DNA from: a virus
Length of the DNA stretch: 64,000 nucleotides
IMG/VR virus record: IMGVR_UViG_3300025929_000001
Span: 31,418-95,417 of that record
Reading direction: 5' to 3' (one strand)
Part shown: positions 36,832 to 62,244 of the stretch, piece after piece
How positions within the stretch are numbered: position 1 is the stretch's first letter
Layout of the letters: each line of letters starts with the position of its first letter
The notes under the pieces: model-generated
Seen by the model: the letters and a program-made list of their open reading frames with translations, nothing else
The model's database searches: none
What the model was told of the DNA's origin: nothing
Made by a program: the position numbers and the translations under genes

Positions 36832-36849
36832 GTGATTCTCTTATTGTGG

Positions 36850-36882: not shown

Positions 36883-36938
36883 TTGAACTCTAGCCTTGGT
36901 AGGCTGAGAGGAGACAGGGTACTACCGAAAAGAAAAGA

Positions 36939-37784: not shown

Positions 37785-38101
37785 TTGATACTTTCGTTTG
37801 TTTAGGTCGGATATCCATTAAAATCCGCTGGATATCGGTGCGGTTACTAAAAGGGTGGGCAGCTACGCTATCTATTCAGATGACCACCTGATAGCTAGGC
37901 GGTTCACTACGTTTGGTAACGACCATCCTGTTTTACTGCTGCCCGTTGATCTGTGTGGTTACTTGCCCCATCCGTAGGGTAGACCATTGCGGAACATCAT
38001 GTGGATCAGTATGGTCATTTGCTTCGGTATCAAGTTCGGTACGTGAACTGGAGCTTTCGGGAGTTTATTTTTAGCCATGATGATATTTTGGGTAAAATTT
38101 T
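37785..38101. other. Intergenic region between ssDNA-binding and Sak4-like genes
   Basis: About 317 nt. It holds two direct GGATATC copies near 37812 and 37832, one GTGTGGTT word (37953), and a possible 39-residue minus-strand ORF (37959-38078) without a good ribosome binding site. I see no tRNA or clear promoter. Confidence 0.5.
37959..38078 (-). CDS. Possible 39-residue basic mini-protein
   Basis: Begins MAKNKLPKAPVHVPNL and ends NGLPYGWGK. Composition is protein-like and the ORF is intact, but no Shine-Dalgarno precedes the ATG. Could be chance. Confidence 0.35.
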   Translation of the reverse strand: MAKNKLPKAPVHVPNLIPKQMTILIHMMFRNGLPYGWGK

Positions 38102-38935
38102 TTAAACGTCACGATTGTAGACGTCAACGCCGCTGCACTGGTAAATCTCGGCAGCAAGATGATTCCAACCGTGTTCTTTTGGGAGTGCGATACTGTTGAC
38201 CACACCAAAGCGATTACCTGCGACCCATCCGGGTGTACGGGTCAAAGCCAGGACGCGTCCTTGGTTTGCGCTGACACCCTTGTTCATAGTCTTGCCTTCA
38301 GACACGTACAATGGTTCGTGCAGGAAGCCGACAACGTCTGCCCATTGGGTCAGCATTTCGCGCTTGCCGTAAGTCTTTTGATTTTTGGGGGAGTGTAACA
38401 GGATGTCCCACGTATCATATTCGCCAAATGCAGGGTCGACGACCTTAGCTGCAAATACGTGACACGTAAGAACGATATTGATGCCGTAATGGACGGCCAG
38501 TTGATCGCACTTGGTAAGGAAGTTTCCAAACAGTTCGTTGGCGTAGTTGTACGCCTTTCCATATCCGCCCAGGGCGCTTTCCATAGTCACGGCCTTTTTG
38601 TTGCCGTTAGCGGATGCGGGGTCGGAGGAGATAACCGATTGGTGGATCAGACGCTCGAGAGCAGTAGCGCTGTCGAAGATGATGCTTTGGTATGGGAATT
38701 GACCGGCTGCACAATTGGCAAGGACTTCGTCCAGCAGCATCATGACATGGTCGTAGTGTTCCAGCATTGGGGTCTTGTGCACCACGACACCAGCAAAGCC
38801 GACTTCGAGTGGAACTAACAGTGCGCGGGGAGCGCTGCACGCTAGAGTAGTTTTACCCATCTTCTCGACACCGGAAACGACGACGCGAATACCGGTACGG
38901 GCTGAACTGTGCGATACTGCTGCAAGTATTGACAT
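38102..38935 (-). CDS. Sak4-like RecA-fold recombinase ATPase
   Basis: 277 residues: Walker A GVEKMGKTT (22-30), Walker B SIIFDSA (84-90), ALGGYGKAYNYANELF and VLTCHVFAAK. This is the AAA_24/Sak4 arrangement of small phage single-strand annealing ATPases. It pairs functionally with the DUF669 protein and Cas4-like nuclease downstream. The leader contains two hairpins between the promoter at 39025 and the ATG. Confidence 0.88.
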   Translation of the reverse strand: MSILAAVSHSSARTGIRVVVSGVEKMGKTTLACSAPRALLVPLEVGFAGVVVHKTPMLEHYDHVMMLLDEVLANCAAGQFPYQSIIFDSATALERLIHQSVISSDPASANGNKKAVTMESALGGYGKAYNYANELFGNFLTKCDQLAVHYGINIVLTCHVFAAKVVDPAFGEYDTWDILLHSPKNQKTYGKREMLTQWADVVGFLHEPLYVSEGKTMNKGVSANQGRVLALTRTPGWVAGNRFGVVNSIALPKEHGWNHLAAEIYQCSGVDVYNRDV

Positions 38936-38965
38936 GTTTTTGTAAACTCCAAAGATAGGAATACC

Positions 38966-39017
38966 GCCTAAGGCTCTGGCCTAGCGGGGTTTTTAACTCC
39001 CCGGCGTTAACCGGGGG
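38966..39017 (-). promoter_or_regulatory. Leader hairpins of the Sak4-like gene
   Basis: Minus strand CCCCGGTTAACGCCGGGG-type inverted repeat (38997-39016), then an imperfect stem around CCGCTAGGCC...CCTTAGGCGG (38966-38989), between the promoter and the ATG. They may stabilise or attenuate the message. Confidence 0.45.
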
Positions 39018-39024
39018 TAACTAA

Positions 39025-39053
39025 ACTATATGCGTTCAGTTTAGCGAATGCAA
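39025..39053 (-). promoter_or_regulatory. Promoter for Sak4-like gene
   Basis: Minus strand TTGCAT (39048-39053), 17-nt spacer, TATAGT (39025-39030), about 90 nt before the ATG. Confidence 0.6.
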
Positions 39054-39079
39054 GCACTATTTTTCAGGCTGATACCAAA

Positions 39080-39442
39080 TTATTTAATCGGATCTGGCGG
39101 TGGTGTATCTGCGTTGAAAGGATGACCTAATCCATACTTAAGCTTCTGCATGTGCGTATGTGCTTCCGTGACTCTTATGCGCAACGCTATGATATATGCA
39201 TCGTCATCGTCGTAACAGTCTCTAGGCGAAGCATAAGCTTCAAATATTAAGCGGAACGCATGGTCGAAGTGCGCTTGCCTTGCCGGATCAGTAAATGTAG
39301 CCGGGTGGACGAATTGATAGCACTGAGGACACTTCTTAACATCCGCAATGTCATGGTCTGACATGATTTTGATCTGCGCACAGCACGAACTACATTCATA
39401 GACCTTCGAATACTGAAAAGTCTCAACTAGCTTCCATTGCAT
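39080..39442 (-). CDS. Zinc-ribbon-like small protein
   Basis: 120 residues. CSSC at 18-21 and CPQC at 38-41 form a probable zinc ribbon. The rest is helical with an acidic patch (DCYDDDDAY). Overlaps the Lar-like gene by 16 nt. Function unknown. Confidence 0.65.
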   Translation of the reverse strand: MQWKLVETFQYSKVYECSSCCAQIKIMSDHDIADVKKCPQCYQFVHPATFTDPARQAHFDHAFRLIFEAYASPRDCYDDDDAYIIALRIRVTEAHTHMQKLKYGLGHPFNADTPPPDPIK

Positions 39443-39744
39443 TTTGAGTCCCTCATTTGTTTGAGTGCAACTGCATATTGATTCCAGTAGTCGACCGCTT
39501 GCTTCATCCGACTAAAATGGAACTCAGCTGACGGTAAGTATAACAGACAGCCGCAAAACAGATCGCTTGTTTGTGGCCCAAAGCGATCCCCTTGTGTGCA
39601 ACAGACAAGGGTTTCCGTCTTTTCGTGCGGGCCTTCGCTGTAACGGAAAAGCTCTGCTGGAGAGCCACATATCGGACATGCTTCCAATGTCACGCCTTCC
39701 GGTGTAGGGATAGGCTTATAGCAGTCATGCATAGGTGTAGTCAT
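39427..39744 (-). CDS. Lar-like restriction alleviation family protein
   Basis: 105 residues. The layout LEACPICGSPAELF, CCTQGDRFGPQ, FCGCLLYLPS, then AVDYWNQYA fits the Lar restriction-alleviation family (CPfCGs zinc ribbon, C..CG, final A-x-x-x-W-N). Lar modulates type I restriction-modification in Rac prophage. Many phage members are untested. Overlaps both neighbours. Confidence 0.7.
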   Translation of the reverse strand: MTTPMHDCYKPIPTPEGVTLEACPICGSPAELFRYSEGPHEKTETLVCCTQGDRFGPQTSDLFCGCLLYLPSAEFHFSRMKQAVDYWNQYAVALKQMRDSKCNGS

Positions 39745-40235
39745 TTTGCAGCCTCCTCAGCAATTTCAATTAGACGACGTAACCGTTCCATTGCTTGCGT
39801 CTGGTTGGTGGCACCAAGCAAGTTCCAGAGCGCATGCATAGCGGTAGACGTACTCTGCGCAGCGATGCTGTCGCTCGTGAAGCCCTGCGCCCACTGCGGT
39901 CGCATACTGCGTTCCGTTTCAAGCTGCTGCTCTAGCCTTTTAATTCGACTACGCATAAGCGATATGGTCGCAGGTCGCGTATTTGCATCGGCCAATATGA
40001 CGAAGTTGTCAGCAATTGCATCTAACAACTCATTGCGCGTTGCATCGCGGTTTTCCATCGGGCCTGCACGCATAAGCACGCGCTCGATAACTTCTTTTAA
40101 GTCACTCATGTTTTCTCCTGAACTGGTTGGTGCGAACAAACCTTTGTCTGATTCGCATAAGCTGCAAACAGGCTGCGCACGAATGGTCTGGTCGCCACAT
40201 TCGGTGCACCTAATCCAATCGTACGCATCACTCAC
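39741..40235 (-). CDS. Zinc-ribbon plus coiled-coil protein with possible internal start
   Basis: 164 residues from a GTG (40235) preceded by GGAGGAC. The first 32 residues hold CTEC and CSLC. An in-frame ATG at 40109 has its own strong AGGAG and begins MSDLKEVIERV, so a 122-residue form without the zinc ribbon may also be made. The body is helical. The GTG overlaps the ligase stop. Function unknown. Confidence 0.6.
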   Translation of the reverse strand: MSDAYDWIRCTECGDQTIRAQPVCSLCESDKGLFAPTSSGENMSDLKEVIERVLMRAGPMENRDATRNELLDAIADNFVILADANTRPATISLMRSRIKRLEQQLETERSMRPQWAQGFTSDSIAAQSTSTAMHALWNLLGATNQTQAMERLRRLIEIAEEAAK

Positions 40236-41140
40236 ATGTCCTCCGCGGAACGTATGCTTTTGAAGGTTGGGAAGCGCGGTTTATCTTTCACACCTTTCGG
40301 GAACCGCTTGTAGGTGATGAACTGCTTAAGAATCTTTTCCGGGTGCAGGAAGAGATCCCGTCGCATGTCGTGTGGCATTGCGCCAGCACTGACCACAATA
40401 GGCTCACCTGTCTCTACGTCAGTACAATCCAACGCACCGACCATCCCGTTCGGCACCTTGTTTGCCTTATGCGACGTGCGGAACGTGCGACCTAGCTCAT
40501 TGGTCTGTGCTTCATTGAGATTCTCTTCACCTTCAATGATGCCGTTAACCAATGCTTCCGCATCTTCAAAGTCCTTGATGCGCAAGTAGCTGCCTTGCTT
40601 GACGGTACTTTTACCGTTTTTGTGAGCGCCGTTTAGGTCACGCAGGATTGTCCCCTCGTAACCCATCTCAACCCAGGCAGCATGTTGACGGCGCAACTGC
40701 TCGACGTTCTCAACCACAATAAGCGGGACGACCCGCAGTGTGCCACACTTGCCGGCATTCTGCATGGTATAGACGTGATTGGTAAGCAACGCATGCCGCT
40801 GGCGATATGGTAGCTCGATAATGTCGCTGCGGATAAAGTCGAACGCATGCCACAAGGTGAACGGCGTCCCCTCGATGGTATTTACAGCAGACGACGTCAA
40901 CCGGCATAAGTCCGGGTGCGTTTCGTCTTGAGCTGCAAGCTCGCCGTCGATACCTTCGAACTCTGGCTTGCTGTAAAATTCCGTCGTGTAACGGTTTTTT
41001 AAACGTTTGAGCGTGCGTGCGTACATTTGACCAGCAGGGTTAATTCCTCGCACGCCGTCTATCTTTGGCATCGCACCGATCGGGAAGCGTAGTTTATCTT
41101 CTTCGTAGTTCTCCGCCTTGTGTGGTTTAACGAATGTCAT
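40232..41140 (-). CDS. ATP-dependent DNA ligase
   Basis: Seals nicks in DNA. In 302 residues: nucleotidyl motif I PKIDGVRG with Lys 26 as AMP acceptor, GIDGELAA (motif III-like), EGTILRD (motif IV), YLRIKDF (motif V), and an OB-fold C-terminal part. A short single-subunit phage ligase. Start overlaps the upstream stop by ATGA. Confidence 0.92.
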   Translation of the reverse strand: MTFVKPHKAENYEEDKLRFPIGAMPKIDGVRGINPAGQMYARTLKRLKNRYTTEFYSKPEFEGIDGELAAQDETHPDLCRLTSSAVNTIEGTPFTLWHAFDFIRSDIIELPYRQRHALLTNHVYTMQNAGKCGTLRVVPLIVVENVEQLRRQHAAWVEMGYEGTILRDLNGAHKNGKSTVKQGSYLRIKDFEDAEALVNGIIEGEENLNEAQTNELGRTFRTSHKANKVPNGMVGALDCTDVETGEPIVVSAGAMPHDMRRDLFLHPEKILKQFITYKRFPKGVKDKPRFPTFKSIRSAEDM

Positions 41141-48172: not shown

Positions 48173-48222
48173 TAAACGTGCGTTTATAGCGTTTATTTTA
48201 GCACATAGGGGGTAGGGTGCAA
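48173..48222 (-). promoter_or_regulatory. Extended -10 promoter with downstream palindrome
   Basis: Minus strand TTGCAC (48217-48222), 16-nt spacer, TGCTAAAAT (TAAAAT at 48195-48200). The palindrome TAAACGTGCGTTTA (48173-48186) begins about at the start of transcription, a good operator position. Confidence 0.6.
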
Positions 48223-51759: not shown

Positions 51760-51781
51760 TAAACGCACGCTTATATTAGCA
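51760..51781 (-). promoter_or_regulatory. Extended -10 promoter with palindrome
   Basis: Minus strand TGCTAATAT (TAATAT at 51773-51778) followed by TAAGCGTGCGTTTA (51760-51773), the same near-palindrome as at 48173 and 54586. Confidence 0.5.
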
Positions 51782-51803
51782 GCGTTTAACAGCTTTGGGC
51801 GTT

Positions 51804-52086: not shown

Positions 52087-52272
52087 CTAAGGTTGCTTGG
52101 CGTTGTGCCATTCCACCCCGCGAAGGAAACCTTCATACAGGGTATTGATGCGAGTCGCTGGTACATTGTGTGAGCCCGCATAAGCGTGAACGTACATCCT
52201 ACCGTTCCAGACATAACGGGTCATGTCGATGTGGCACATGCGCTCAAATGCTTCACGCAATTTCTCGTTCAC
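52087..52272 (-). CDS. Unknown small protein
   Basis: 61 residues, helical N-terminus (LREAFERMCHIDMTRYVW). ATG overlaps the stop of the DHp-like gene (ATGA), so the two are co-translated. Confidence 0.6.
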   Translation of the reverse strand: MNEKLREAFERMCHIDMTRYVWNGRMYVHAYAGSHNVPATRINTLYEGFLRGVEWHNAKQP

Positions 52273-52484
52273 ATGTTCTCCTTTCTTAATTCATCGTAAG
52301 CGAGGTCGAGAATGCTTTGTGCCTTATCAATAGACCGCGCCATACGCCTAACAATTTCCTTATTGCGATCAGCCATTTCCTTGTCTGCTTGCAACAAGGC
52401 TATACCCGACGTAATAACGTTCATCTGCGTGCGGATGTCGTGGTTCATTTTATTAAACTTCTCGAATGCTTCTGGTGACATCAT
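52269..52484 (-). CDS. Stand-alone HisKA/DHp-like protein
   Basis: Only 71 residues. FNKMNHDIRTQMNVITSGIA matches the H-box of histidine-kinase dimerisation domains (F-x-x-M-S-H-E-I-R-T-P-M-N-x-I), with the phosphoacceptor His and the D-x-x-T phosphatase element kept. IVRRMARSIDKAQSILDLAYD then matches the second DHp helix. There is no ATP-binding domain. If real, it could act as a phosphotransfer or decoy protein on host two-component systems. Coupled to the 61-residue gene downstream. Confidence 0.65.
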   Translation of the reverse strand: MMSPEAFEKFNKMNHDIRTQMNVITSGIALLQADKEMADRNKEIVRRMARSIDKAQSILDLAYDELRKENM

Positions 52485-52499: not shown

Positions 52500-52514
52500 A
52501 CTCCAAAGCGGAGT
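52500..52514 (-). promoter_or_regulatory. Leader hairpin
   Basis: ACTCC-AAAGC-GGAGT (plus reading): 5-bp stem, 5-nt loop, just upstream of the ribosome binding site of the DHp-like gene. Confidence 0.6.
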
Positions 52515-52560
52515 CCATAGCCTGCTGACCTGTATGTGGTCACCAAGCTATGAAATTGCT

Positions 52561-52809
52561 TTAGCTATTGTCTGCGGGTTTCCGTGCACGCAAGATTGTC
52601 AATTGCGATTCGCAATAGGCAATATAATCAGCATGCGGCGCTTTGGGTTTAAGGTTGAACTCTTTAGCCAAACGCGGCCGCAATGCACCACCGCTTGACT
52701 TAAGACCGACTTGTTCGAGCTTGAGTTGTTGCTTAATTGACGCGAACCGGAAATAGGAAACAGCATCCGGCGTATCCGCGATAAATGCTTTCTCTTGTTG
52801 GCTGCTCAT
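52561..52809 (-). CDS. Conserved phage small protein
   Basis: 82 residues. RFASIKQQLKLEQVGLKSSGGALRPRLAKEF is a pattern I recognise from many phage small proteins of unknown role. Coupled to the upstream gene by ATGA. Confidence 0.65.
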   Translation of the reverse strand: MSSQQEKAFIADTPDAVSYFRFASIKQQLKLEQVGLKSSGGALRPRLAKEFNLKPKAPHADYIAYCESQLTILRARKPADNS

Positions 52810-53081
52810 TGCGGGTTCTCCTTTTTGACAAGAACATCGGTAAGTACTTCGGACAACATCTTGTGAAGCGCTTGCGCCTTAAGCGCTTCGAACAGTGTGT
52901 GGCAGACAAACATGACCTCCGCTTTGTTGAGATCATATTTGTCGACCAACATGTTGTTCACTTCGCGAACGATGTTGCCAAGTTCGTCGTCAGACTTCTC
53001 GAACAGTTTAGCCAGCTTACCGTTTTCATCCCGCGTGCGGTTAGGGTCGCGTGGCTCTTTTGCTTTTAATGTATCGGACAC
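52806..53081 (-). CDS. Unknown small charged protein
   Basis: 91 residues, helical (DELGNIVREVNNMLVDKYDLNKAEV). GGAGCAAG leader. Not recognised. Confidence 0.6.
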   Translation of the reverse strand: MSDTLKAKEPRDPNRTRDENGKLAKLFEKSDDELGNIVREVNNMLVDKYDLNKAEVMFVCHTLFEALKAQALHKMLSEVLTDVLVKKENPQ

Positions 53082-53113
53082 GTTCTTGCTCCTAAGTTAG
53101 TGGTTGTATTGAA

Positions 53114-53452
53114 TTAATGCAGAGTTGGCCGGTCAGCTAGCACTTCCGTCAGTGCGTCGTGCCGCGCTTCTTGTTGGGTCATTTCTGCATTGTACTCCTC
53201 GTGCGTATCGGCTAAGAACCCTTCGCTGGTGTAGTTGACACCGAGTTCATCCGTTGGGATGTTCTGGAAACAACCGAACAGCGGGGAGTTCGTAAAAAGC
53301 TGACCGTTAGGCCCTGGCTTTGCTGCCCAATACGGTTCCCAGAAATTGTCCGGGTTGTCGTCGAACTTGTCCTCGTTAAACAAGATCAACAAACCGCGAT
53401 CCAGAGCAGCTTTTGCCCAGGCCATTTGGTCTGTGTAGCGATGGATTGCCAT
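53114..53452 (-). CDS. Unknown small acidic protein
   Basis: 112 residues with an aromatic Gly/Pro/Asn-rich middle (FWEPYWAAKPGPNGQLF). GGAGCAC leader. The leader also carries GGGCTG...CAGCCC (53473-53496). Not recognised. Confidence 0.6.
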   Translation of the reverse strand: MAIHRYTDQMAWAKAALDRGLLILFNEDKFDDNPDNFWEPYWAAKPGPNGQLFTNSPLFGCFQNIPTDELGVNYTSEGFLADTHEEYNAEMTQQEARHDALTEVLADRPTLH

Positions 53453-53507
53453 TTTGTTGTGCTCCTAAAAATGGGCTGACCATACAGCGCCAGCCCGTGG
53501 TTGATAC

Positions 53508-53837
53508 TTAGCAATTCACATAGTGTACCGGGCTGCGCACTACCAGATCCTCTGGCAGCTTAATGCCAACCAGCGGCAGATAGGCACGCGGCTTACGACC
53601 GAAGAAGTCAACCCTGCGGTGCGGTTCGAACTCCGCGGTTGCGATTTCATCCACTCGGCGCACCTCGACGATGGTACCGTCGCTGTCCCGTCCGATAATG
53701 TAATCGGGCAGTCCTTTCTTGACGCGCTTGTCCCGGCTGAACGGGTTAGCGACCCATGATTGCTGAACGCGCCCTGTTTGGTACACGTTAACAATGATGC
53801 AGCGCTGGCTAAGTAAATCACTTAATAGCTTAGGCAT
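53508..53837 (-). CDS. Unknown small basic protein
   Basis: 109 residues (MPKLLSDLLSQRCIIVNVYQ), beta-rich with GLPDYIIGRDSDGTIVEVRR. GGAG leader. Not recognised. Confidence 0.6.
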   Translation of the reverse strand: MPKLLSDLLSQRCIIVNVYQTGRVQQSWVANPFSRDKRVKKGLPDYIIGRDSDGTIVEVRRVDEIATAEFEPHRRVDFFGRKPRAYLPLVGIKLPEDLVVRSPVHYVNC

Positions 53838-53854
53838 AATAAATACTCCGGTTA

Positions 53855-53908
53855 CGGGCAAAGCGCCCGCGATAACCACACTGGTGAGTTGTGGATTGTG
53901 TGGTTATC
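53855..53908 (-). promoter_or_regulatory. Leader double hairpin
   Basis: CGGGC-AAAGC-GCCCG (53855-53869) next to the ribosome binding site. A perfect 11-bp stem GATAACCACAC/GTGTGGTTATC (53871-53908) follows on its 5' side. Confidence 0.65.
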
Positions 53909-53922
53909 ACTGGTGCTTTAGG

Positions 53923-54522
53923 TCAGATTTGACCTTTGTATTCTACTTCCCAAATTTCTGCCATGCGAGTTGCTACTTGGTAACAGAAATCTTGCTCGCT
54001 GAAACCGTAGATAGTGTCGTGCGGATTATTGCGCAAACTAGACAGGTATCCTGCGTAGAAGTCGACGTCGCTGAAGCTATTCTTAGCAGCGTCCTGTTCT
54101 TGGGTAATGCGCTTGACAATAAAGAACTTCAGATATTGCTGCGCGTTGTGTTCGACTTCAACCAGATGGCTTAATTGGCGCTGCACTTGCTCGGAGACAG
54201 CGCTGGCAAACTGCATACCATCGCCGCTCATAAGCTCATTGTGCACCCATGTTTCGTGATACTGGCTGGTTGGTCCGATGTGTTCTGGGTTGCCTTTGCA
54301 TTCCGCCCATTGTTTGGCAGACAACCATTCCGCGGTTGCTTCGACCATGCGCTCGTAAGCAGCTTCGACCGGGTCCATGTCTTCAGTTCGTTTGGAATCG
54401 TCCACTTGGCAGTACCCTGGAATGAATTGGGCTGCTGTTTCTACCATAGCAGCCATGACAGCTTTGTCTTCCTTAGTTGGGATTGGAGATACTTTGAAAG
54501 GACGCTTTTTGTTGTCAGACAT
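53923..54522 (-). CDS. Unknown protein
   Basis: 199 residues, mostly helical (AAYERMVEATAEWLSAKQWAE, then VSEQVQRQLSHLVEVEHNA). GGAGCAATATC leader. No recognised domain. Largest protein of the local small-gene group. Confidence 0.65.
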   Translation of the reverse strand: MSDNKKRPFKVSPIPTKEDKAVMAAMVETAAQFIPGYCQVDDSKRTEDMDPVEAAYERMVEATAEWLSAKQWAECKGNPEHIGPTSQYHETWVHNELMSGDGMQFASAVSEQVQRQLSHLVEVEHNAQQYLKFFIVKRITQEQDAAKNSFSDVDFYAGYLSSLRNNPHDTIYGFSEQDFCYQVATRMAEIWEVEYKGQI

Positions 54523-54708
54523 GATATTGCTCCTGAGGTGAAATGCATCTGTTGGATGCGGTTGGGTAAATGCGTATTGTACTGCTAAACGTGCGTTTAT
54601 GGTGCACATTTAAACGCGTTTTAAGCGCTTAAATGCATTTTTGCGGGGAGGGTATAGGGTACCCGCTAAAAACGCAGGCAACATGCGTTGCCCACGGTTT
54701 AAACGGTA
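54523..54708. promoter_or_regulatory. Intergenic control region
   Basis: Contains a leader stem GCATC-TGTTG-GATGC (54545-54559), the palindrome TAAACGTGCGTTTA (54586-54599), an AACGCGTTTTAAGCGCTTAAATGCA-like stretch near 54612, and GTTTAAAC (54697-54704). A similar arrangement occurs at 60158-60240. Confidence 0.6.
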
Positions 54709-55200
54709 TTAATAGCGCGTGCCCCGGTACCAATCCGGGTAACACACAAATTCCCCTGCATCATTGCGCCCTGTCTCGCGGATGCGGTCAGCTTCGTTCT
54801 CCGCACGCAGACGTTCTGCTGCACGCTTGTCGTTGCTACGAATCTTCCCTGACCCTTCGCAGGTGTAGCAGGTCTTATCGTACCCGCCGTTGAAATACAT
54901 TTCGCGGGACTCCTCGTCGTCAAAGGCTTCGTAGAATTCAGACTGCGTGTAGCTGCCCAGATGCCTGCAGTGGTGCCCGTCCCCTGAACAGGTTGGGCAG
55001 ATAACCCAACCGCCGCGCACTTCAGACTCTGCGGGTGAGAACTCACCACAATCGCACCCTGCCTCGGTTTCGTGGCAGTTAATGCAGATCGTTGAGGCAG
55101 ATTTGGGTGCGGAGAAGCTTTCGCACTCGCAGTAGACTTCAGGTTCGCGGCAGACTGTGCATTTTGGCAGGGAATCTGGATCAATTTGATTGTAGCGCAT
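54709..55200 (-). CDS. DnaJ-type zinc-finger protein
   Basis: 163 residues with several Cys pairs: CTVC, CEC, CINC, CDC, then CPTCSGDG and CYTCEGSG. The last two are exact C-x-x-C-x-G-x-G repeats of the DnaJ cysteine-rich domain. No J domain is present. It could assist protein folding or bind zinc and nucleic acid. Leader GGAGCC. Confidence 0.75.
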   Translation of the reverse strand: MRYNQIDPDSLPKCTVCREPEVYCECESFSAPKSASTICINCHETEAGCDCGEFSPAESEVRGGWVICPTCSGDGHHCRHLGSYTQSEFYEAFDDEESREMYFNGGYDKTCYTCEGSGKIRSNDKRAAERLRAENEADRIRETGRNDAGEFVCYPDWYRGTRY

Positions 55201-55222
55201 GGTAAGGCTCCTAAAGTGAAAT

Positions 55223-55266
55223 GATGCAGAACGCATCCAAATGCCCGCTGTTGCCAGTGAGCATTT
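55223..55266 (-). promoter_or_regulatory. Leader double hairpin
   Basis: GATGC-AGAAC-GCATC (55223-55237) then AAATGC...GCATTT (55239-55266), upstream of the gene starting at 55200. Confidence 0.6.
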
Positions 55267-55274
55267 AGGGTGTT

Positions 55275-55682
55275 CTAGTTCATGTTTTTGAGATACAGCA
55301 CAAAGTCGACCTGAAACTTAAACAAGCCGATCATTTCCGCAGGGCTGTACCCTTCAGAATCTTCCATGTCCATGTATTCCAACAAGGCTTGCTTAACCTT
55401 ATCTGCTGGCATTGCTTCTATCTCAGATAAGAATTCCTTATCGGTCATGGGTACGAATTCAGGAACGAACTTGTGTTCCTCGACCATTTCGTCACTGCGA
55501 TCTTCTAGCCAGTGTGCAAACTCACAGGCCCAACCTTCTAATTCTTCTTCGGGCACCATAATTTGCAGCGAATTACCAAATTGCTCGAACTGCCCATCAT
55601 CCATGCGGTTGTCGAGAAACAGTTCAGCTTGCTTAGAGCCTTGAACAAACAGGAAATCGCTGAGGTTGCGTAGTGTGGTCAT
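55275..55682 (-). CDS. Unknown acidic protein
   Basis: 135 residues, strongly acidic (GWACEFAHWLEDRSDEMVEEH). Helical. GGAGCAAT leader. The charge suggests a DNA-mimic possibility, but this is speculative. Confidence 0.6.
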   Translation of the reverse strand: MTTLRNLSDFLFVQGSKQAELFLDNRMDDGQFEQFGNSLQIMVPEEELEGWACEFAHWLEDRSDEMVEEHKFVPEFVPMTDKEFLSEIEAMPADKVKQALLEYMDMEDSEGYSPAEMIGLFKFQVDFVLYLKNMN

Positions 55683-55705
55683 TTATTGCTCCTAAAATGG
55701 GTGAT

Positions 55706-55747
55706 GGTGCAAAGTGCACCCACTAGCCTACTCAGGGAGAAGGCTAG
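55706..55747 (-). promoter_or_regulatory. Leader double hairpin
   Basis: GGTGC-AAAGT-GCACC (55706-55720) then CTAGCCT...AGGCTAG (55723-55747). Confidence 0.65.
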
Positions 55748-55764
55748 GAGGTTACTTTACGTTG

Positions 55765-56223
55765 TTAAATGATGCCGTAAGTGATGCTGTGGGCGTGACC
55801 GTCCTCGAAAGCTTCCAGGGTGCGATCGCGGGAACGGTATTGGATATCGTTTGCTACGGATGGGCGTTCCAGACTGAAGTAGCATGGCCCGTCTGCCCAG
55901 TTGAGTGTGTGGTCGATGTGGGCTTGCACAGCTTCCTTAGTTGCATCGACGATGCGAACCTTCCCTGCGTACTGCACACCATCGCAATCCATACCGGATT
56001 CGAGAACGGCGATTTTGCCATCCTCAGCGAGTGCGGTAAGGTCGCGCAGAAATTGGATCCGCTGCTGGCGTGCTTCCCGGGCTGACCACAATGCGTGATC
56101 GTGGACTTGGCGGTGCGCCTTGAGGATATAAGAATCCAGAAAGCGGTAGTCCTCCGGAACCACTGCGTTGCGAATCATTGGGGAGGTGGCTTTCCAGTAC
56201 AGCGAAGGTGTGATGGATTTCAT
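55765..56223 (-). CDS. Unknown protein
   Basis: 152 residues; VHDHALWSAREARQQRIQFL helix and a beta region. GGAGCC leader decides the ATG at 56223. Not recognised. Confidence 0.62.
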   Translation of the reverse strand: MKSITPSLYWKATSPMIRNAVVPEDYRFLDSYILKAHRQVHDHALWSAREARQQRIQFLRDLTALAEDGKIAVLESGMDCDGVQYAGKVRIVDATKEAVQAHIDHTLNWADGPCYFSLERPSVANDIQYRSRDRTLEAFEDGHAHSITYGII

Positions 56224-56246
56224 GGTAAGGCTCCTAAAAGGGTTAC

Positions 56247-56307
56247 GCTGCGGATTGTAGATTGCAGCCACTAACCTGCTCGTAATGAAAGGGGGTGAAC
56301 AGGTTAG
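56247..56307 (-). promoter_or_regulatory. Leader double hairpin
   Basis: GCTGC...GCAGC with a 12-nt loop (56247-56268), then CTAACCTG...CAGGTTAG (56271-56307). Confidence 0.6.
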
Positions 56308-56325
56308 TAGATGTATCTAAGTTAG

Positions 56326-56580
56326 TTACTCGTCTTTTGGAGTTAAATGCTCCAGGTAAATGGGCACCATGTATTCCTGAAGCATTAGGCGCAGCTTTTG
56401 CTCTGCGACTTGGAGGGCTTCAGACAGGGTGTCGAAGGAAAGTACCTGATGCAGTTCACCGACTAGGGTGCTGACTTTGTATGTTGTAGTGTCGTCTGTG
56501 AGATTAAACTCGGTCAGGCTTACCAAGAGGTTAGATGCTGCATTGTTGTACTGGAAGTACAGATGGTTGGTTGTTTTCAA
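56326..56580 (-). CDS. Unknown small protein, TTG start
   Basis: 84 residues. The start is TTG at 56580, supported by TAGGAGC 6 nt upstream. Beta N-terminus, helical C-terminus (ALQVAEQKLRLMLQEY). Not recognised. Confidence 0.6.
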   Translation of the reverse strand: MKTTNHLYFQYNNAASNLLVSLTEFNLTDDTTTYKVSTLVGELHQVLSFDTLSEALQVAEQKLRLMLQEYMVPIYLEHLTPKDE

Positions 56581-56678
56581 GTCAAGCTCCTAAGAAGGTG
56601 ATGCGGTGGTGGTGCAACTGGTATTGTACTGCATAATGTGCGTGCAGTATATGCTTGCAGTTGGGTAAGTGATATGCC

Positions 56679-56930
56679 TTACTCCAATACAACCGTGATA
56701 CCTGCTTGTTCGAGAACGTTGCGCAGGAGGTTGGTGACTGCTGGAGCATAAAATTGCCGGTTGGCTTCCACGACAGATATGTGGTTAGTTTCCCATTCCT
56801 CTGCTGCAACAGGATACGCAGACAAGCTAATTGCATCCTCGTCAGTGAAAAGGTAGACGGTAGGCTTAGCCGGGGTCTGGTCTGTACGACGACCGGTTGG
56901 GAAAGGCCAGGAAGTAGGTTTGTCGGACAT
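56679..56930 (-). CDS. Unknown small protein
   Basis: 83 residues, Pro-rich N-terminus then helical (APAVTNLLRNVLEQAGI). The stop of the RHH gene is 9 nt upstream. Not recognised. Confidence 0.6.
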   Translation of the reverse strand: MSDKPTSWPFPTGRRTDQTPAKPTVYLFTDEDAISLSAYPVAAEEWETNHISVVEANRQFYAPAVTNLLRNVLEQAGITVVLE

Positions 56931-56939
56931 TTGGGTTCC

Positions 56940-57176
56940 TTATGCTTGTGGTAAGTTGAAAAGCTCGATGTCGGTGTAGTTACCATCGGCATCTTTGAGT
57001 GCAAGAGTAAGCTTTGCCTGGTCTTGTTGAATTGCGTATTCGTACAAGCGAAGCGCATTGCGGATCACCTCTGTGTACGAAGTAGCTTCGCTCGCTTGCT
57101 TAATCCATTCCAAGCGCCGATAGCTATTTTCTGGTATCTTGAGCTTGAACTCGCGTGTTGGTTCTTTTTTAAGCAT
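56940..57176 (-). CDS. Ribbon-helix-helix protein
   Basis: 78 residues. EFKLKIPENSYRRLEWIKQA then TSYTEVIRNALRLYEYA is an RHH fold (beta strand plus two helices) as in CopG/Arc-like regulators. Probably a dimeric DNA-binding regulator. GGAGCAATATC leader. Confidence 0.75.
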   Translation of the reverse strand: MLKKEPTREFKLKIPENSYRRLEWIKQASEATSYTEVIRNALRLYEYAIQQDQAKLTLALKDADGNYTDIELFNLPQA

Positions 57177-57196
57177 GATATTGCTCCTATGGTGTA

Positions 57197-57238
57197 GATG
57201 CAAAGCGCATCGTATAGCCTATGTTTTGGGATAGGCTA
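57197..57238 (-). promoter_or_regulatory. Leader double hairpin
   Basis: GATGC-AAAGC-GCATC (57197-57211) then TAGCCTAT...ATAGGCTA (57214-57238), upstream of the RHH gene. Confidence 0.65.
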
Positions 57239-57257
57239 TGGGCTGAGCTTTGGAGGG

Positions 57258-57776
57258 TTAAGATTCGTGCGGGTCGGCGGGGATTGGATAATCAGCGACC
57301 AGTTGTATTTGCCGTTTAATTCGTGCTAGGGCTAATTCCTTATCGCTGATGCTGGAACCGTATGTGGCGAATAGGTTGTTGTCCAATGTGCCGTTACCAC
57401 GCATATCGAACAGACGCGCCCAAGCACGCGGGCCGAAGAAGCGATTTAACCACACGTAGTGGCCGGGAGCGTCTAGTTCGTATTGCGTGAGGTTGGCGGG
57501 TTCGACCGGGTACCATTGCCCTTCACCTTTCCATTCCTTAAGTGCGAAACCCAAGTCTTGGAAATGCGGGACTAGGGTAAGTTCGCCAAAGGCGCAGTAG
57601 TGAGCGCCGCATGGGTTGCGTTCGGTTGGCTGAACTGAGCCAGGTTGCATGTAATGGCGCAGATTGAGTTCTTCCTCGGGAACCAGTGCGATGGCTTTGT
57701 AAGCCTTGTGCAGGTTGTCCAGGATGAAAGGTGTGTGGTAATAGTTGTCGTCGGTGATTGTTGGCATTGTAGGCAT
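57258..57776 (-). CDS. Unknown protein
   Basis: 172 residues, aromatic (GHYVWLNRFFGPRAWARLFD). A CAHYC-like Cys/His group near 57 (NPCGAHYCAFGEL). GGAGCC leader. I recognise a resemblance to uncharacterised phage proteins only. Confidence 0.65.
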   Translation of the reverse strand: MPTMPTITDDNYYHTPFILDNLHKAYKAIALVPEEELNLRHYMQPGSVQPTERNPCGAHYCAFGELTLVPHFQDLGFALKEWKGEGQWYPVEPANLTQYELDAPGHYVWLNRFFGPRAWARLFDMRGNGTLDNNLFATYGSSISDKELALARIKRQIQLVADYPIPADPHES

Positions 57777-57800
57777 GGTTAAGGCTCCTGAGTTGGTGAG

Positions 57801-57841
57801 GATGCAAAGCGCATCTGGTTACTCCCTTAGTAGGAAGTAAC
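57801..57841 (-). promoter_or_regulatory. Leader double hairpin
   Basis: GATGC-AAAGC-GCATC (57801-57815) then GTTACT...AGTAAC (57818-57841). Confidence 0.65.
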
Positions 57842-57913
57842 GGGCTGAGCTTTATACGAAATAATGCACTGCGGGGAATAGGCAATGCATTATGGGCGGG
57901 GCTTTATGGATGG

Positions 57914-58153
57914 TTATTGGAAACTGCCGAGCAATTGTTGAGCTAAGGCCATGTTTAAGATTTCTATACAATCGGCAATGTCGTAGAGTTGCGATTCAAC
58001 GCCGGTTTCGAGATTGAGGACACGGAACAGCGGGTTCGCAAAGCAAGGTGCCATATAGGAGGCTATGGTGTCGACGATGCAATAATGCTGCTTGCGGTAC
58101 ATAACGCGGCGACCGCCGATGATTGTATCTTCGTTGGGTGTTTGGGCTGGCAT
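57914..58153 (-). CDS. Unknown small protein
   Basis: 79 residues from MPAQTPNEDTIIGG, GGAGCC leader. Beta-rich, then helical. Not recognised. Confidence 0.58.
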   Translation of the reverse strand: MPAQTPNEDTIIGGRRVMYRKQHYCIVDTIASYMAPCFANPLFRVLNLETGVESQLYDIADCIEILNMALAQQLLGSFQ

Positions 58154-58154
58154 G

Positions 58155-58430
58155 TTAAGGCTCCTCCATTGTTGGTACGGAAGCAGACGCAGCAACTGCA
58201 TCTGCACGCTTAATAAACTTTTTCATATCCAGCCAAGAGTAGGTATAAACTGGCGGATATATTTGCTGCTTGTGATAACGGTTGGCATATCGCATCGCTC
58301 CAGCTTGCGTCAGGAATGCATAAAGCTTTCCCTTAACTTCCACACAGTAGAGCGGACGTCCCTTTTGAGCACAGGTCCGAGGCACAATTTGCTTCATATT
58401 GCTCGGCCAGATAAATGGAGGCTTTGCCAT
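58155..58430 (-). CDS. Unknown small basic protein
   Basis: 91 residues from MAKPPFIWPSNMKQIV. The ATG is 2 nt after the upstream stop, so coupling probably replaces a missing Shine-Dalgarno. Beta-rich core (CVEVKGKLYAFLTQAGAMRY). Not recognised. Confidence 0.52.
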   Translation of the reverse strand: MAKPPFIWPSNMKQIVPRTCAQKGRPLYCVEVKGKLYAFLTQAGAMRYANRYHKQQIYPPVYTYSWLDMKKFIKRADAVAASASVPTMEEP

Positions 58431-58432
58431 GG

Positions 58433-59317
58433 TTATTGGTTTTGGAGCTGAGCAAGGTAGTTCATCCGCCAATTGCATGTTTGGGCGACGTAGTCTTGCA
58501 ACTGGACGAGATCATGCTGTTCCTTAAGCACCCAAGAATCCCATGTGAGGCCGAAAGGCTTAATGGACTCGAGAAACATCGGGTGCGGTACGGAATGCAT
58601 AAACTTCAGCGCTTGTTGCTTAGCAGCTTCGACCTGCTCGTCCCGATGACGGTTGGTGTAGGCAATTTCATCCCGAATCTTGTCGAAATGGGTGGCCACA
58701 CCGTCTTGGGTTATGAGTTCTTGGAAATCGGTGTATTGATTTTGATCCAAGCGCTGTATGAGATCGAGAGTTCCTTGCGCGAACGTTTTGGGCATCTCAG
58801 GCGGTAGGCCTTTAACCGGTGGCTCACCAATTTTGCGATTGGCGTTAGCGACCTGGGCTTTTGTGACTGTGCGCCGTGAATGCTGATACGTTTTGTCGTA
58901 ATCGATAAGCGCAGGGATGTCAAGGATACTACGCTGCCAAGGTAAATCTTGGATAGGTAGCGGTTGCTCGAGATATGTGCAGTATTCGATGAGCCGTTCG
59001 CGTTGGAAGTCGTCCAGGACGTAGTTGGTTACGATGTCCATAATGTTCTGGTCGCTTAAATGTGCGAAGGACAGCAGTTGAGAAACTACGATACCATCGT
59101 CGCCCTTGAACATAAAGGCGAGATCCACATAATTGGAAGGCTTCGCAATATTCCAACTGTTGTCTACCGGGTTGAAGCATCGATACACATAACGTTGTCC
59201 ATACGCAGACTTACTTTCGATCCAACTAAGCATAGTTGTGAACCGACCAAACACGTAAGGGAAGCGTTCATTACTGTACGCGTTACTTTCAGAATCGTAA
59301 TTTAATAGTTGTAGCAT
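58433..59317 (-). CDS. Unknown protein
   Basis: 294 residues. N-terminal alpha/beta region (FGRFTTMLSWIESKSAYGQRYVYR), a Pro-rich stretch near 160-180, and a helical C-terminus (RHRDEQVEAAKQQALKF). GGAG upstream. It is the first gene behind the promoter at 59432. No domain recognised. Confidence 0.65.
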   Translation of the reverse strand: MLQLLNYDSESNAYSNERFPYVFGRFTTMLSWIESKSAYGQRYVYRCFNPVDNSWNIAKPSNYVDLAFMFKGDDGIVVSQLLSFAHLSDQNIMDIVTNYVLDDFQRERLIEYCTYLEQPLPIQDLPWQRSILDIPALIDYDKTYQHSRRTVTKAQVANANRKIGEPPVKGLPPEMPKTFAQGTLDLIQRLDQNQYTDFQELITQDGVATHFDKIRDEIAYTNRHRDEQVEAAKQQALKFMHSVPHPMFLESIKPFGLTWDSWVLKEQHDLVQLQDYVAQTCNWRMNYLAQLQNQ

Positions 59318-59883
59318 GGATGTGACTCCGGTTGGTTGTGCTGCGTTGAAAACTTAATTGTACAGGTAGATTAGTTGGATATGCTAGTGGGTTATATGTA
59401 GGCCGGGTACTTAATTTGTGGTCGGGAGGGTAATATAATAGTGAAGCGCTGCGTTAGCAAACTAAGCCGCACATACAATATAAAAAATACTTTTTTACCC
59501 TACGGCCCCACCTCCCTACCCTAAAATTGAACAAACCCATTACTAATCATACTAAACCTGTATATTCACTACTATTTTACCTATATAAACACCCTTTTTA
59601 TCATCATTAGCATGCTAGTACAGTTTTAAACAGCATCTGCACTCCTGATAGAGATTTTTATATACCAAGGGTGGGTACCCAAAATCCTGAGCAGGTAAAA
59701 TTAGTACTATCGCGGCATAGTTTCTGCCGAGAATTAGTGACCAACCCTACCTACCCTAAAAATGCAGTCAACTAAGGGGTCTGTCACACCCCTTAAGTAA
59801 TGCATTCAACTCTTTTTATAGCCTCCCTGCCCAAATAATAGTGATAAAACACACTATGGCGAGCAAGAGAGCGATATGCATGA
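59318..59883. promoter_or_regulatory. AT-rich non-coding control region
   Basis: About 566 nt without a convincing gene. It holds a minus-strand promoter (59432-59460), the dodecamer CCTGATAGAGAT (59644-59655) shared with 63764, and repeated CTACCCTAAAA words near 59514 and 59752. Poly-A/T stretches and low gene content would also suit an origin. Confidence 0.55.
59432..59460 (-). promoter_or_regulatory. Promoter
   Basis: Minus strand TTGCTA (59455-59460), 17-nt spacer, TATATT (59432-59437), about 115 nt before the gene starting at 59317. Confidence 0.6.
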
Positions 59884-60141
59884 TTATCCAACCTTCCTTA
59901 TGTCGTCCAGCCAGGATTCCATAGCATTACGGAACACAAGCAAGTCAAATAATATGGCTTCGTGACCCTGAACCAGCGTCCCTGCTCCAGAAAAATTGAC
60001 AGCAGTCACGTCCACATGGTGACGAAACGCGGGATTGTCCAGAATACGGTACAAATGCTCCGCATATTGTTCAGCGCGGTCCAGATCGGCTTCGAAACTA
60101 GCACTGTCGTAAACAGCCGACTCGTTGGATTGTGTGGTCAT
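59884..60141 (-). CDS. Unknown small acidic protein
   Basis: 85 residues, helical (SFEADLDRAEQYAEHLYRIL). AAGGAG leader. Not recognised. Confidence 0.6.
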   Translation of the reverse strand: MTTQSNESAVYDSASFEADLDRAEQYAEHLYRILDNPAFRHHVDVTAVNFSGAGTLVQGHEAILFDLLVFRNAMESWLDDIRKVG

Positions 60142-60157
60142 CTTAATCTCCTTAACG

Positions 60158-60340
60158 GTTTAAACGGGTTTTAAGCGCTTTAAATGCAAAGCTAGGGTTA
60201 GGTACCAGCTACCCGTTAAAAACAGCGTAGCGGTACCGCAAAACGCGTGCTATGGGGTTGATTTAATGCGCTTTAAAACCCTTAATACCGGGCGAAAGTA
60301 CCCGACACTAACCGCACCATTCGAGATAGTGTGGTTAGTA
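60158..60340. repeat. Intergenic element with hairpins, related to 54603-54708
   Basis: GTTTAAAC (60158-60165), a TTTTAAGCGCTTTAAATGC stretch, GGTACC-GCTAC/GTAGC-GGTACC hairpin (about 60201-60238), CGGG...CCCG (60289-60304) and CTAACC...GGTTAG. Several of these words recur in the gap at 54603-54708. Confidence 0.5.
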
Positions 60341-60352
60341 GCTGATCCTTTC

Positions 60353-60700
60353 TTAACCGCCCATGCGATTATTACGGGCGTCTTCTTCGTACTCGGCAGC
60401 TTGCCATGAGTCGTACGCTTCCTTAGTCTGGAACAGGTAGCCAACCCAATCGTGATCGTCGTCACTTTGTGGGTCAGGGCGCCATTCGCAACGCCACACC
60501 CCTACCACATCGCATTCTGAACGGCGCCAGTTGGTCTTGGGGTCGATTGCGAAGCATGGGTCCCACATATCGTCGCTAGATGGACCATTCTCGACATCTG
60601 CATACATGAAGGTTTCAAACCCTGCCGCAATCACGGCGGCTTTCCAAGTCTTGAAATCGTGATAGGTGCTTGTAACAATCATTGAGCTGAGGGGCATCAT
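60353..60700 (-). CDS. Unknown small protein
   Basis: 115 residues, Trp and Asp-rich (CEWRPDPQSDDDHDWVGYLF). AAGGAG upstream. Coupled within 3 nt to the gene before it. Not recognised. Confidence 0.58.
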   Translation of the reverse strand: MMPLSSMIVTSTYHDFKTWKAAVIAAGFETFMYADVENGPSSDDMWDPCFAIDPKTNWRRSECDVVGVWRCEWRPDPQSDDDHDWVGYLFQTKEAYDSWQAAEYEEDARNNRMGG

Positions 60701-60702
60701 AA

Positions 60703-61011
60703 TTACTCCTTAATGTAAGAACCGACGATTGCGCAGCCCGGATGTGCATTGCGAGCAGCTTCTTCAGCATCCGCTTGCAGACCGAAGTAACCATACTCGA
60801 ATTGCCCATCGCCAGCGCGTTCGACGAGGACTGCCCATTCGCGATGCGGCTCCTCATACGGGCGAACGTTAACCGATTCGGTCACGTTATTCAGGTAGGA
60901 CAGATAGTGCAAATCGCCTTCCTTAATGCCGCGCTGGATCGCATGCCCAAACAGCTCTTCGCTGACATGGTTGCCAACCGTTATTTCAACTACGAAAGTC
61001 TTACTTGCCAT
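60703..61011 (-). CDS. Unknown small protein
   Basis: 102 residues, alpha/beta (TFVVEITVGNHVSEELFGHAI). GGAGAAAT leader. Not recognised. Confidence 0.6.
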   Translation of the reverse strand: MASKTFVVEITVGNHVSEELFGHAIQRGIKEGDLHYLSYLNNVTESVNVRPYEEPHREWAVLVERAGDGQFEYGYFGLQADAEEAARNAHPGCAIVGSYIKE

Positions 61012-61032
61012 GATGTATTTCTCCTTAGTTGT

Positions 61033-61076
61033 GCTTCGAGAGTGAAGCCAATAGCCAACTCGTTGGAGAAGGCTAT
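61033..61076 (-). promoter_or_regulatory. Leader double hairpin
   Basis: GCTTC-GAGAGT-GAAGC (61033-61048) then ATAGCC...GGCTAT (61051-61076). Confidence 0.6.
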
Positions 61077-61088
61077 TAAATTACTCTC

Positions 61089-61352
61089 TTATTTACACTT
61101 GTGCTGGAACAGACGCCCTGCGGACATTTCCCTAGAGCATCCAGGGCAGATTGCACGGACACGGTGGAATTCCTTACGCTCGCGTGCATCTTCGAGACTG
61201 CGAACGTAAATGAATACGCCTTGCACCATGCGCATCGGTAGACCGCCAGCAGGCCATTTAGCCTTAGGATCCAGACCCATAAGAATTTTCATTCCTGAGT
61301 CGTGAACGTTGCGCTTATGTTCTGGCCAGCGAGGGTCAATGATTTTATACAT
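61089..61352 (-). CDS. Small protein with C-terminal zinc motif
   Basis: 87 residues. CPGC...FQHKC at the C-terminus is a likely C-C-H-C zinc site. The rest is basic and alpha/beta. AAGGAG leader. Not recognised. Confidence 0.62.
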   Translation of the reverse strand: MYKIIDPRWPEHKRNVHDSGMKILMGLDPKAKWPAGGLPMRMVQGVFIYVRSLEDARERKEFHRVRAICPGCSREMSAGRLFQHKCK

Positions 61353-61379
61353 GTGCGGACTCCTTATTTGTGAGTGTGG

Positions 61380-61694
61380 TTAATGAAGGTGCTTATCGCT
61401 AGGCACGTCAGGAATAAAGCCCATCATCTTCTGGAGCTTGGTGTTAAATTCCAGCGCCAGCTGACGATATTGCTCGGGCGTGACTTCCATCTTAGCGCAG
61501 ATTTCAGAATTGTCGCACTCGTCACAGAGTGCAATATGTTCCGTTTCGTTACCAATAGCGTCCATCACCATCGCGAACACAACCGCAGGATTTTCAGCCT
61601 GGAGAATCATGTTCGCGATGCCGGTAAACGCCTCGGCAATAAACTGCGCCACCCTTAGTTCTTCCTGCGACAGAGGTTGCTTTTCGTCGTTCAT
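61380..61694 (-). CDS. Unknown small protein with CDECDNSEIC motif
   Basis: 104 residues, helical with a compact Cys group (CDECDNSEIC). Coupled to the RHH gene upstream by ATGA. Not recognised. Confidence 0.6.
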   Translation of the reverse strand: MNDEKQPLSQEELRVAQFIAEAFTGIANMILQAENPAVVFAMVMDAIGNETEHIALCDECDNSEICAKMEVTPEQYRQLALEFNTKLQKMMGFIPDVPSDKHLH

Positions 61695-61873
61695 GCTTGT
61701 GGCTCCTTATCCTGAGCAACTGCTTGAGTCATGAAGTTACGAATTGCTTCCGTGGTCGTGACACCCCGACGAATACAGAGCGCGTTAAATTCGTCACGAA
61801 GCTTAAGCGGGACCCGAATCGTTACCGGGCCCATATCCTCCTTGGGAGGCTTAGGTGCGAATACGTCAAACAT
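61691..61873 (-). CDS. Ribbon-helix-helix protein
   Basis: 60 residues. GPVTIRVPLKLRDEFNALCI then TTTEAIRNFMTQAV is an RHH fold. AAGGTAAC precedes the ATG at 61873. Probably a small DNA-binding regulator. Confidence 0.72.
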   Translation of the reverse strand: MFDVFAPKPPKEDMGPVTIRVPLKLRDEFNALCIRRGVTTTEAIRNFMTQAVAQDKEPQA

Positions 61874-61894
61874 GATAGTTACCTTTTGGAAAAC

Positions 61895-61930
61895 CGGACA
61901 AGGCGTCCGCATAAGGGCCACGAAGACCCT
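61895..61930 (-). promoter_or_regulatory. Leader double hairpin
   Basis: CGGAC-AAGGC-GTCCG (61895-61909) then AAGGG...CCCTT. Confidence 0.65.
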
Positions 61931-61942
61931 TAAACTGAAACC

Positions 61943-62161
61943 TTATTCTTCTGGATCATCTCCAGAATCTTCATCTTCCCCTTGCAGCTCGCGAATCCAG
62001 CAAGCCTTAGCTTCAATCCCATAACTTTCGAGAACGAAGGCCGGATCCATATTTAAGGTCTGGACCATGTGCTGCATATCGTGAACTTCAGACTCCGCAT
62101 CGTCAATATTCGTGAAATCGGTAATTTGAGTCATTTCTTGCGCGAGGGAGATATTGGACAT
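61943..62161 (-). CDS. Unknown small acidic protein
   Basis: 72 residues, acidic throughout with a GEDEDSGDDPEE tail. AAGGAG leader. Not recognised. Confidence 0.6.
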   Translation of the reverse strand: MSNISLAQEMTQITDFTNIDDAESEVHDMQHMVQTLNMDPAFVLESYGIEAKACWIRELQGEDEDSGDDPEE

Positions 62162-62189
62162 TTCGAGACTCCTTAATTAGTGTGGTTAA

Positions 62190-62229
62190 CGGGCAAGCCG
62201 CCCGACTAAGGACTCCCGAGGGAATCCTT
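62190..62229 (-). promoter_or_regulatory. Leader double hairpin
   Basis: CGGGC-AAGCC-GCCCG (62190-62204) then AAGGA...TCCTT (62208-62229). Confidence 0.65.
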
Positions 62230-62244
62230 AAGCTGAAGGCTTAA

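Follow-up and report, generated by a model that had tools for sequence, protein, structure and literature searches.

A stop-codon-anchored intercistronic RNA pseudoknot as a putative spacer between small phage genes

Main finding

The stretch analysed here (the window, 64 kb) is the final part of the 95,417-base IMG/VR virus record IMGVR_UViG_3300025929_000001 and contains a minus-strand array of small genes, mostly without family matches, whose intergenic gaps very likely harbor an RNA structure of three helices, termed S1, HP1 and S2, repeated along the polycistronic transcript. The sequence-only reading of this region had described a lone hairpin before the ribosome site of many of the genes; the unit is instead an intercistronic pseudoknot that begins at the stop codon of the previous gene. 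As an overall explanation, a stop-codon-anchored knot that serves as a self-closing insulating or protecting spacer is given a probability of about 0.5.

Architecture of the element

In mRNA sense (minus strand), the order is S1a, HP1, S2, a short linker, the Shine-Dalgarno sequence (SD), and ATG. S1a is a strand of 5-6 nucleotides (nt) that usually overlaps the upstream stop codon or lies no more than 9 nt from it, starting at the second base of the stop or a few nt later (TAAAGC, TAGAAC, TAAGGT, TAAGAGAGT, TAAGAAAG). HP1 is a long hairpin between S1a and S2, and S2 is the hairpin described earlier. Folding of whole leaders revealed that the S2 loop pairs with the short strand 5' of HP1. The frequent mRNA-sense loop GCTTT, already noticed from the letters alone, was borne out, and it recurs because it is complementary to the AAAGC found at the stop of the preceding gene. 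Beyond GCTTT/AAAGC, the loop/S1a pairs in the window are ACTTT/AAAGT, GTTCT/AGAAC, ATCTA/TAGAT, ACTCT/AGAGT, GGCTT/AAGCC, GCCTT/AAGGT, and CTTTC/GAAAG, and the window elements have no stem sequence in common.

Within the array, no element occurs in gaps ranging from overlap up to 55 nt, while 11 of the 14 gaps of at least 60 nt are filled by one. The three that have none measure 98, 186, and 566 nt, and the 186-nt gap contains a terminator-like hairpin. The elements thus divide one set of tightly coupled genes from the next. The copy at 60289-60352 follows the last stop of an array with no start directly behind it, consistent with a function connected to the upstream end.

Most of what had been claimed for the hairpins survives within this larger structure. 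All eleven are present on the minus (mRNA) strand, and of 25 leaders, 11 have a perfect stem of 5 base pairs (bp) with a loop of 3-7 nt just before the SD, where dinucleotide shuffling gives 2.96 +/- 1.6 (at most 9 in 1000 shuffles); restricted to loops of 5-6 nt, the figures are 10 leaders and 1.5 (maximum 6). The hairpin at 56247 (stem GCTGC/GCAGC) has a loop of 12 nt, so the short loop does not extend to all eleven. Nor are the eleven quite one set: ten are members of the element, but the hairpin at 54545, whose leader serves a gene that comes after a terminator-like hairpin, lacks both the 5' hairpin and S1, and the copy at 60289-60352 had been missed. The second hairpin on the 5' side exists, but it is HP1, a regular part of the element rather than something unrelated.

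Statistical support for the pseudoknot

A descriptor of the three helices, controlled by shuffling and by parallel pairing, took the place of a covariance model, because S1 requires pseudoknot notation and HP1 is too variable to align. In all eleven window elements the complement of the loop lies within the 20 nt that run from the first base of the upstream stop codon onward, compared with a mean of 3.3 (maximum 9) when loops are permuted and 1.3 (maximum 6) when the post-stop bases are shuffled; among elements whose loops differ from GCTTT it is found in 7 of 7 (P = 0.0002). Likewise, the summed pairing score between loop and S1a is 273.5, whereas permuting the loops yields 221 +/- 13 and never more than 254.5 in 300 permutations. 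The 10-kb region contains 8 copies of the complete three-helix element followed by an SD, compared with 0.015 in shuffles (maximum 1 in 200 shuffles), and across the whole virus record stop-anchored knots number 9 against 1 for the parallel-pairing control.

In a set of 15 elements, S1 and S2 show pairing in every cell (100%), both partners vary in 9 of the 10 pairs, covariation is 0.86 against 0.28 after shuffling, and pairing falls to 34-42% when the partner is shifted by one column. Given that the S1a strands of this set were selected for pairing, the covariation illustrates rather than tests the structure, and the loop permutation is the cleaner test. Together, the S1/S2 covariation and the loop permutation make the earlier argument from compensatory change to RNA structure stronger than it was originally put. 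Non-Watson-Crick pairs in HP1, counted in gene sense without preference, comprise 19 G.U and 3 A.C, an excess that points to RNA of the gene-sense strand. The mean folding z of the leaders is -2.7. No U-run of the kind that marks an intrinsic terminator directly follows a hairpin; mixed sequence follows S2b and HP1 in all eleven elements.

Occurrence in other phages

A first search was made for exact GATGCGCTTTGCATC followed by GGAG. HP1 lies 0-5 nt before GATGCGCTTTGCATC, with an SD and ATG behind, in L025, L026, L028, L037, and L041, and the same layout recurs in the later contigs L067, L068, and L089. Within the viral collection, HP1 accompanies 9 of 30 distinct matches to the S2 pattern (1.6 expected by shuffling); the corresponding count in bacterial genomes is 1 of 81 (4.8 expected), and there is thus no signal in them. 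Fifteen matches to a control loop, TTTCG, include no strict HP1, although L222 and L233 look tandem.

A prediction search of IMG/VR specified only S1a and S2 (TAAAGC-N22..50-GRTGCGCTTTGCAYC), leaving HP1, SD, and start free, and returned 24 stretches representing 19 distinct places, where a rough base-count estimate gives about two by chance. Although spacings of 22-50 nt were permitted, S1a and S2 are 32-35 nt apart in 17 of the 19, and an HP1 of at least 6 bp is present in 18. The TAA ends a frame of at least 35 codons in 13, and the majority also have a following start. Among twelve matches of equal length, six HP1 pairs change on both sides. Further copies with different S1 and S2 sequences lie on the same contigs (L262, L272, L273, L283), and stop-anchored knots on the IMG/VR contigs number 23 against 3 for the parallel-pairing control. 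Because TAA is fixed in the pattern, the stop codon assists these matches; the 20-nt stop test in the window and the copies with other loops on the contigs are free of this bias. On contig L283 (2900-4050), three stop-anchored knots lie in 1.2 kb, with S2 stems GATGC, ACTGC, and AGTGC, and one of them has an AGGAGC-type SD like that of the window.

Anchoring at the stop recurs in unrelated phages, in which S1a appears as TTAAGGCC (G001), TTAAAGC (L089), and CTAAGAGC (L068), and in L078 the stop TGA itself is inside S1a. Loop and S1a co-vary elsewhere too, as AATCTC/GAGATT in G006 and GGCTTT/AAGGCC in G001. The range of carriers is wide and takes in phages whose terminases, portals, and polymerases are unrelated: G000 is siphophage-like, G001 has a primase, a terminase from a different family, and a gene for a DnaN-like clamp behind an element, G003 has a polymerase A, G006 another terminase, and G008 another portal type. 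Conversely, in fourteen named phages, most as partial genomes (Bcep781, BcepNazgul, AH2, NP1, Seurat, VPv62, VPv64, HD01, phiPSA1, 023Pt_psg01, DSL-LC04, HMO-2011, CRP-13, and HK022), knots are at control level, 13 against 13. In L001/G009, the closest of the relatives by polymerase, there is a single tandem hairpin lacking S1. Nipunavirus NP1 (L247:9675-9764) and Variovorax phage VPv62 (L241, near 2295) have in common an intergenic gap after the helicase gene that holds tandem hairpins but no S1, the loop being CGCGTG in NP1 and CACGCG in VPv62.

Relation to known RNA elements

Rfam 15 at gathering score gives no match in the window and none in ten element-bearing loci. The leader of E. coli rpsO, the S15 operator, holds a pseudoknot able to alternate with two hairpins; it resembles the window elements in placing a pseudoknot in a leader, but it overlaps its own ribosome site, is bound by S15, and exists in a single copy; PMC3014915 mentions this operator as well. 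A similar layout is that of the T4 gene 32 mRNA, whose pseudoknot has the strand order S1a-S2a-S1b-S2b, the same as in the window elements, which show this H-type order upstream of an unstructured ribosome-binding site. In T4, T2, and RB69 the gene 32 pseudoknot lies upstream of an unstructured linker that carries the SD (PMC3014915), as in the window. It differs, however, in being a single copy at its own gene, in a region 67 nt before the start (PMC3014915), without a hairpin in loop 1 or an anchor at a stop codon, and in being bound by gp32.

The SAS/ESAS of cluster K mycobacteriophages are conserved sequences with little support for an mRNA hairpin (PMC3203893). Like the elements, they recur within one half of a phage genome, where many small genes have a copy immediately preceding the SD and an inverted repeat upstream; unlike them, they are conserved in sequence, whereas the window elements vary in sequence, keep their pairing, and begin at the previous stop. 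Neither the conserved 13-bp GGGATAGGAGCCC nor the conserved 17-bp inverted-repeat consensus that defines SAS/ESAS is a feature of the window elements. The put RNA of HK022 consists of two stem-loops (PMC9378689) and is similarly a cis-acting phage RNA of about 70 nt with two near-adjacent stem-loops, but its two copies lie downstream of early promoters and have no stop-codon anchor, while the window elements are intercistronic. Mu-gpT-DE (Rfam RF03012) is matched by L035 at 3428-3480, and the same leader is present in L038 and L039. It too is a phage RNA before an SD, with a hairpin in L035 that is GATGCGCTTTGCATC exactly as in the window; its outer stem, however, pairs with the SD region (CCUG with CAGG), it lacks HP1, and it is a single site before one gene. 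The RF03012 model has no match in the window at the gathering or a lax threshold.

Proposed function and alternatives

The role of the knot as a folded spacer that insulates cistrons and shields the gap is proposed tentatively, from sequence evidence. S1 and S2 would form together in the mRNA as a compact knot with HP1 as its bridge. A ribosome finishing the upstream gene would cover S1a and hold S1 open, so that S1 could pair only at a vacant stop codon and the knot would close once the terminating ribosome departs. Because the sequence, including the unpaired positions, is not conserved, the closed knot would act through its shape. It might insulate neighboring cistrons, preventing post-termination ribosomes from sliding and upstream RNA from pairing with the next SD region, and might shield an otherwise naked gap of 70-100 nt from nucleases and Rho. 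In kissing loops, a loop of 5-6 nt can pair fully with an outside strand; S1 and S2 can therefore coexist in principle.

Several points weigh against the insulating spacer. A simple fold does not reveal any insulation of the SD, although such a fold cannot model pseudoknots; the gap of 98 nt at 56581-56678 has no element; the seed sequence of the IMG/VR search biases the sample toward the GCTTT loop type; and S1 is a tight fit when all 5 nt of the loop are paired, and S1 and S2 may alternate. The last point leads to a switch, in which the two helices are mutually exclusive and a terminating ribosome on the stop would prevent S1 and permit S2, or the opposite would hold after it leaves, the two states differing in downstream initiation or in mRNA cleavage. 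The overlap or abutment of S1a with the stop codon in unrelated phages would suit a switch, and in G008 the pairing TGCATT/AATGCA extends S1 into the S2 stem on its 5' side, which makes the two helices competitors in that case. In most copies, however, S1 takes up the loop and no more, without encroaching on the S2 stem, the loops of mostly 5-6 nt suit full pairing, and no predicted state hides the SD; a switch is accordingly considered unlikely, if worth keeping in mind. An operator after the manner of T4 gp32, by which a phage protein would bind the knot, spread into the SD, and co-control many small genes, is a doubtful alternative. The succession of knot, short unstructured linker, and SD is indeed that of T4 gene 32 (PMC3014915), and many copies lie within a single small-gene array, but stems, loop, and HP1 are all variable and offer no conserved unpaired sequence to bind, and neither the anchoring at the upstream stop nor the gene-less copy at 60289 is accounted for.

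The remaining explanations fare worse. Plain tandem hairpins for mRNA processing or end protection, as originally envisaged, would be in keeping with the folding z and with an HP1 that is often very stable (UNCG loops in L068, L089, L028, and L037), yet they leave the covariation of the S2 loop with the strand at the stop codon unexplained and are improbable. Still more improbable is an antiterminator of the put type, an RNA that would bind RNA polymerase during transcription; antitermination by put itself involves binding of the beta' zinc-binding domain. Two near-adjacent hairpins in about 70 nt within early-type arrays recall the two stem-loops of put (PMC9378689), but put sits near promoters, where one copy per operon is enough, and here 11 copies are tied to stop codons; moreover, the HK022 early region (24000-40751) contains no GRTGC-type hairpin leader and no element. 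Perfect inverted repeats at gene borders might also mark a site in DNA, be it a cruciform, an N4-type hairpin promoter, or a recombination site. This is scarcely credible in view of the 19 to 3 ratio of G.U to A.C pairs, the tie of position to stop codon and SD on one strand, and giant proteins that match a tape measure or nothing informative rather than the N4 virion RNA polymerase.

Further candidates were rejected. N4-like hairpin promoters lack a virion RNA polymerase match among the giant proteins; boxB-type N sites do not fit, the loop being pyrimidine with no GNRA; and sequestration of the SD, as in a riboswitch or thermometer, is not apparent in nested folds, where the SD is unpaired at 0.38 with natural and 0.37 with shuffled upstream sequence (p = 0.6). 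For a stop-codon readthrough pseudoknot, the in-frame extension varies from 2 to 191 codons with no fixed frame to the next gene, and S1a often overlaps the stop codon.

With respect to the stop-anchored spacer, the presence of the same undescribed design in unrelated phages suggests a shared way to separate or protect neighboring genes on one mRNA. That it represents a widespread undescribed class of phage RNA, in which the upstream stop codon lies within one strand of a knot that reads out translation termination, is a possibility rated just short of even odds. Phage operons of tiny genes need translation gene by gene without loss of the intervening mRNA, and a stop-codon knot would be a general answer. 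If so, many unrelated tailed phages would have modular punctuation between their cistrons, in the form of a structured RNA class that is new and present in many copies in each genome; it would help to locate operons and the starts of small genes when phage genomes are annotated, and would render ribosome-dependent RNA switching at stop codons directly testable.

Coordinates and genomic context

Table 1. Elements and one non-member hairpin in window coordinates (S2 as 5' arm-loop-3' arm).
Feature	Position	Strand	S1a	HP1	S2	S1a relative to upstream stop	Following gene
Element 1	52500..52562	-	AAAGC	present	ACTCC-GCTTT-GGAGT	overlaps TAA of 52561-52809	52269-52484
Element 2	53855..53919	-	AAAGC	12 bp	CGGGC-GCTTT-GCCCG		53508-53837
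Element 3	55223..55276	-	AGAAC	present	GATGC-GTTCT-GCATC	overlaps TAG of 55275-55682	54709-55200
Element 4	55706..55758	-	AAAGT	present	GGTGC-ACTTT-GCACC		55275-55682
Element 5	56247..56319	-	TAGAT	present	GCTGC-AATCTACAATCC-GCAGC (long loop)		55765-56223
Element 6	57197..57251	-	AAAGC	present	GATGC-GCTTT-GCATC		56940-57176
Element 7	57801..57853	-	AAAGC	present	GATGC-GCTTT-GCATC	about 60 nt from stop; second AAAGC about 8 nt after stop	57258-57776
Element 8	60289..60352	-	GAAAG	present	CGGGT-ACTTTC-GCCCG	directly after TAA of 60353-60700	no gene start directly after
Element 9	61033..61088	-	GAGAGT	present	GCTTC-ACTCTC-GAAGC		60703-61011
Element 10	61895..61944	-	AAGGT	present	CGGAC-GCCTT-GTCCG		61691-61873 (SD AAAGG)
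Element 11	62190..62242	-	AAGCC	present	CGGGC-GGCTT-GCCCG		61943-62161
Non-member hairpin	54545..54559	-	no S1	absent	GCATC-CAACA-GATGC		

Gene starts in the array are predictions. The genes downstream of the elements are small unknowns, the majority without a PHROG match, and a protein query with gene 57258-57776 did not find relatives. Elsewhere in the window, proteins match a tape measure, DNA polymerase B, a clamp, and a primase; on this gene set and a polymerase that is 48% identical, the record is placed near Pseudomonas phage NP1 and other Queuovirinae. The last 24 kb of the record has no DNA matches with phage records. At 35-14034, two giant proteins lie side by side, the tape measure of 2178 amino acids (aa) and one of 2484 aa with only a sub-threshold match to an SWM repeat.

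Several non-coding features accompany the array. The gap of 55 nt at 53453-53507 holds a single GGGCTG...CAGCCC hairpin followed by ATTTTT at the SD and is terminator-like. Two stretches, 54580-54700 and 60140-60280, are alike (TTTAAACG..GTTTTAAGCGCTTTAAATGCA, 93% match over 29 nt), and each sits between a terminator-like hairpin and a gene start; they are probably operon starts. About 560 nt at 59320-59880 are gene-free and AT-rich with repeats of CCTACCCTAAAA-type words, possibly an origin or promoter region. Finally, palindromes resembling TAAACGCACGTTTAGCAG recur in three leaders (48173-48186, 51767-51785, and 54586-54599) and may represent a protein-binding or promoter site.

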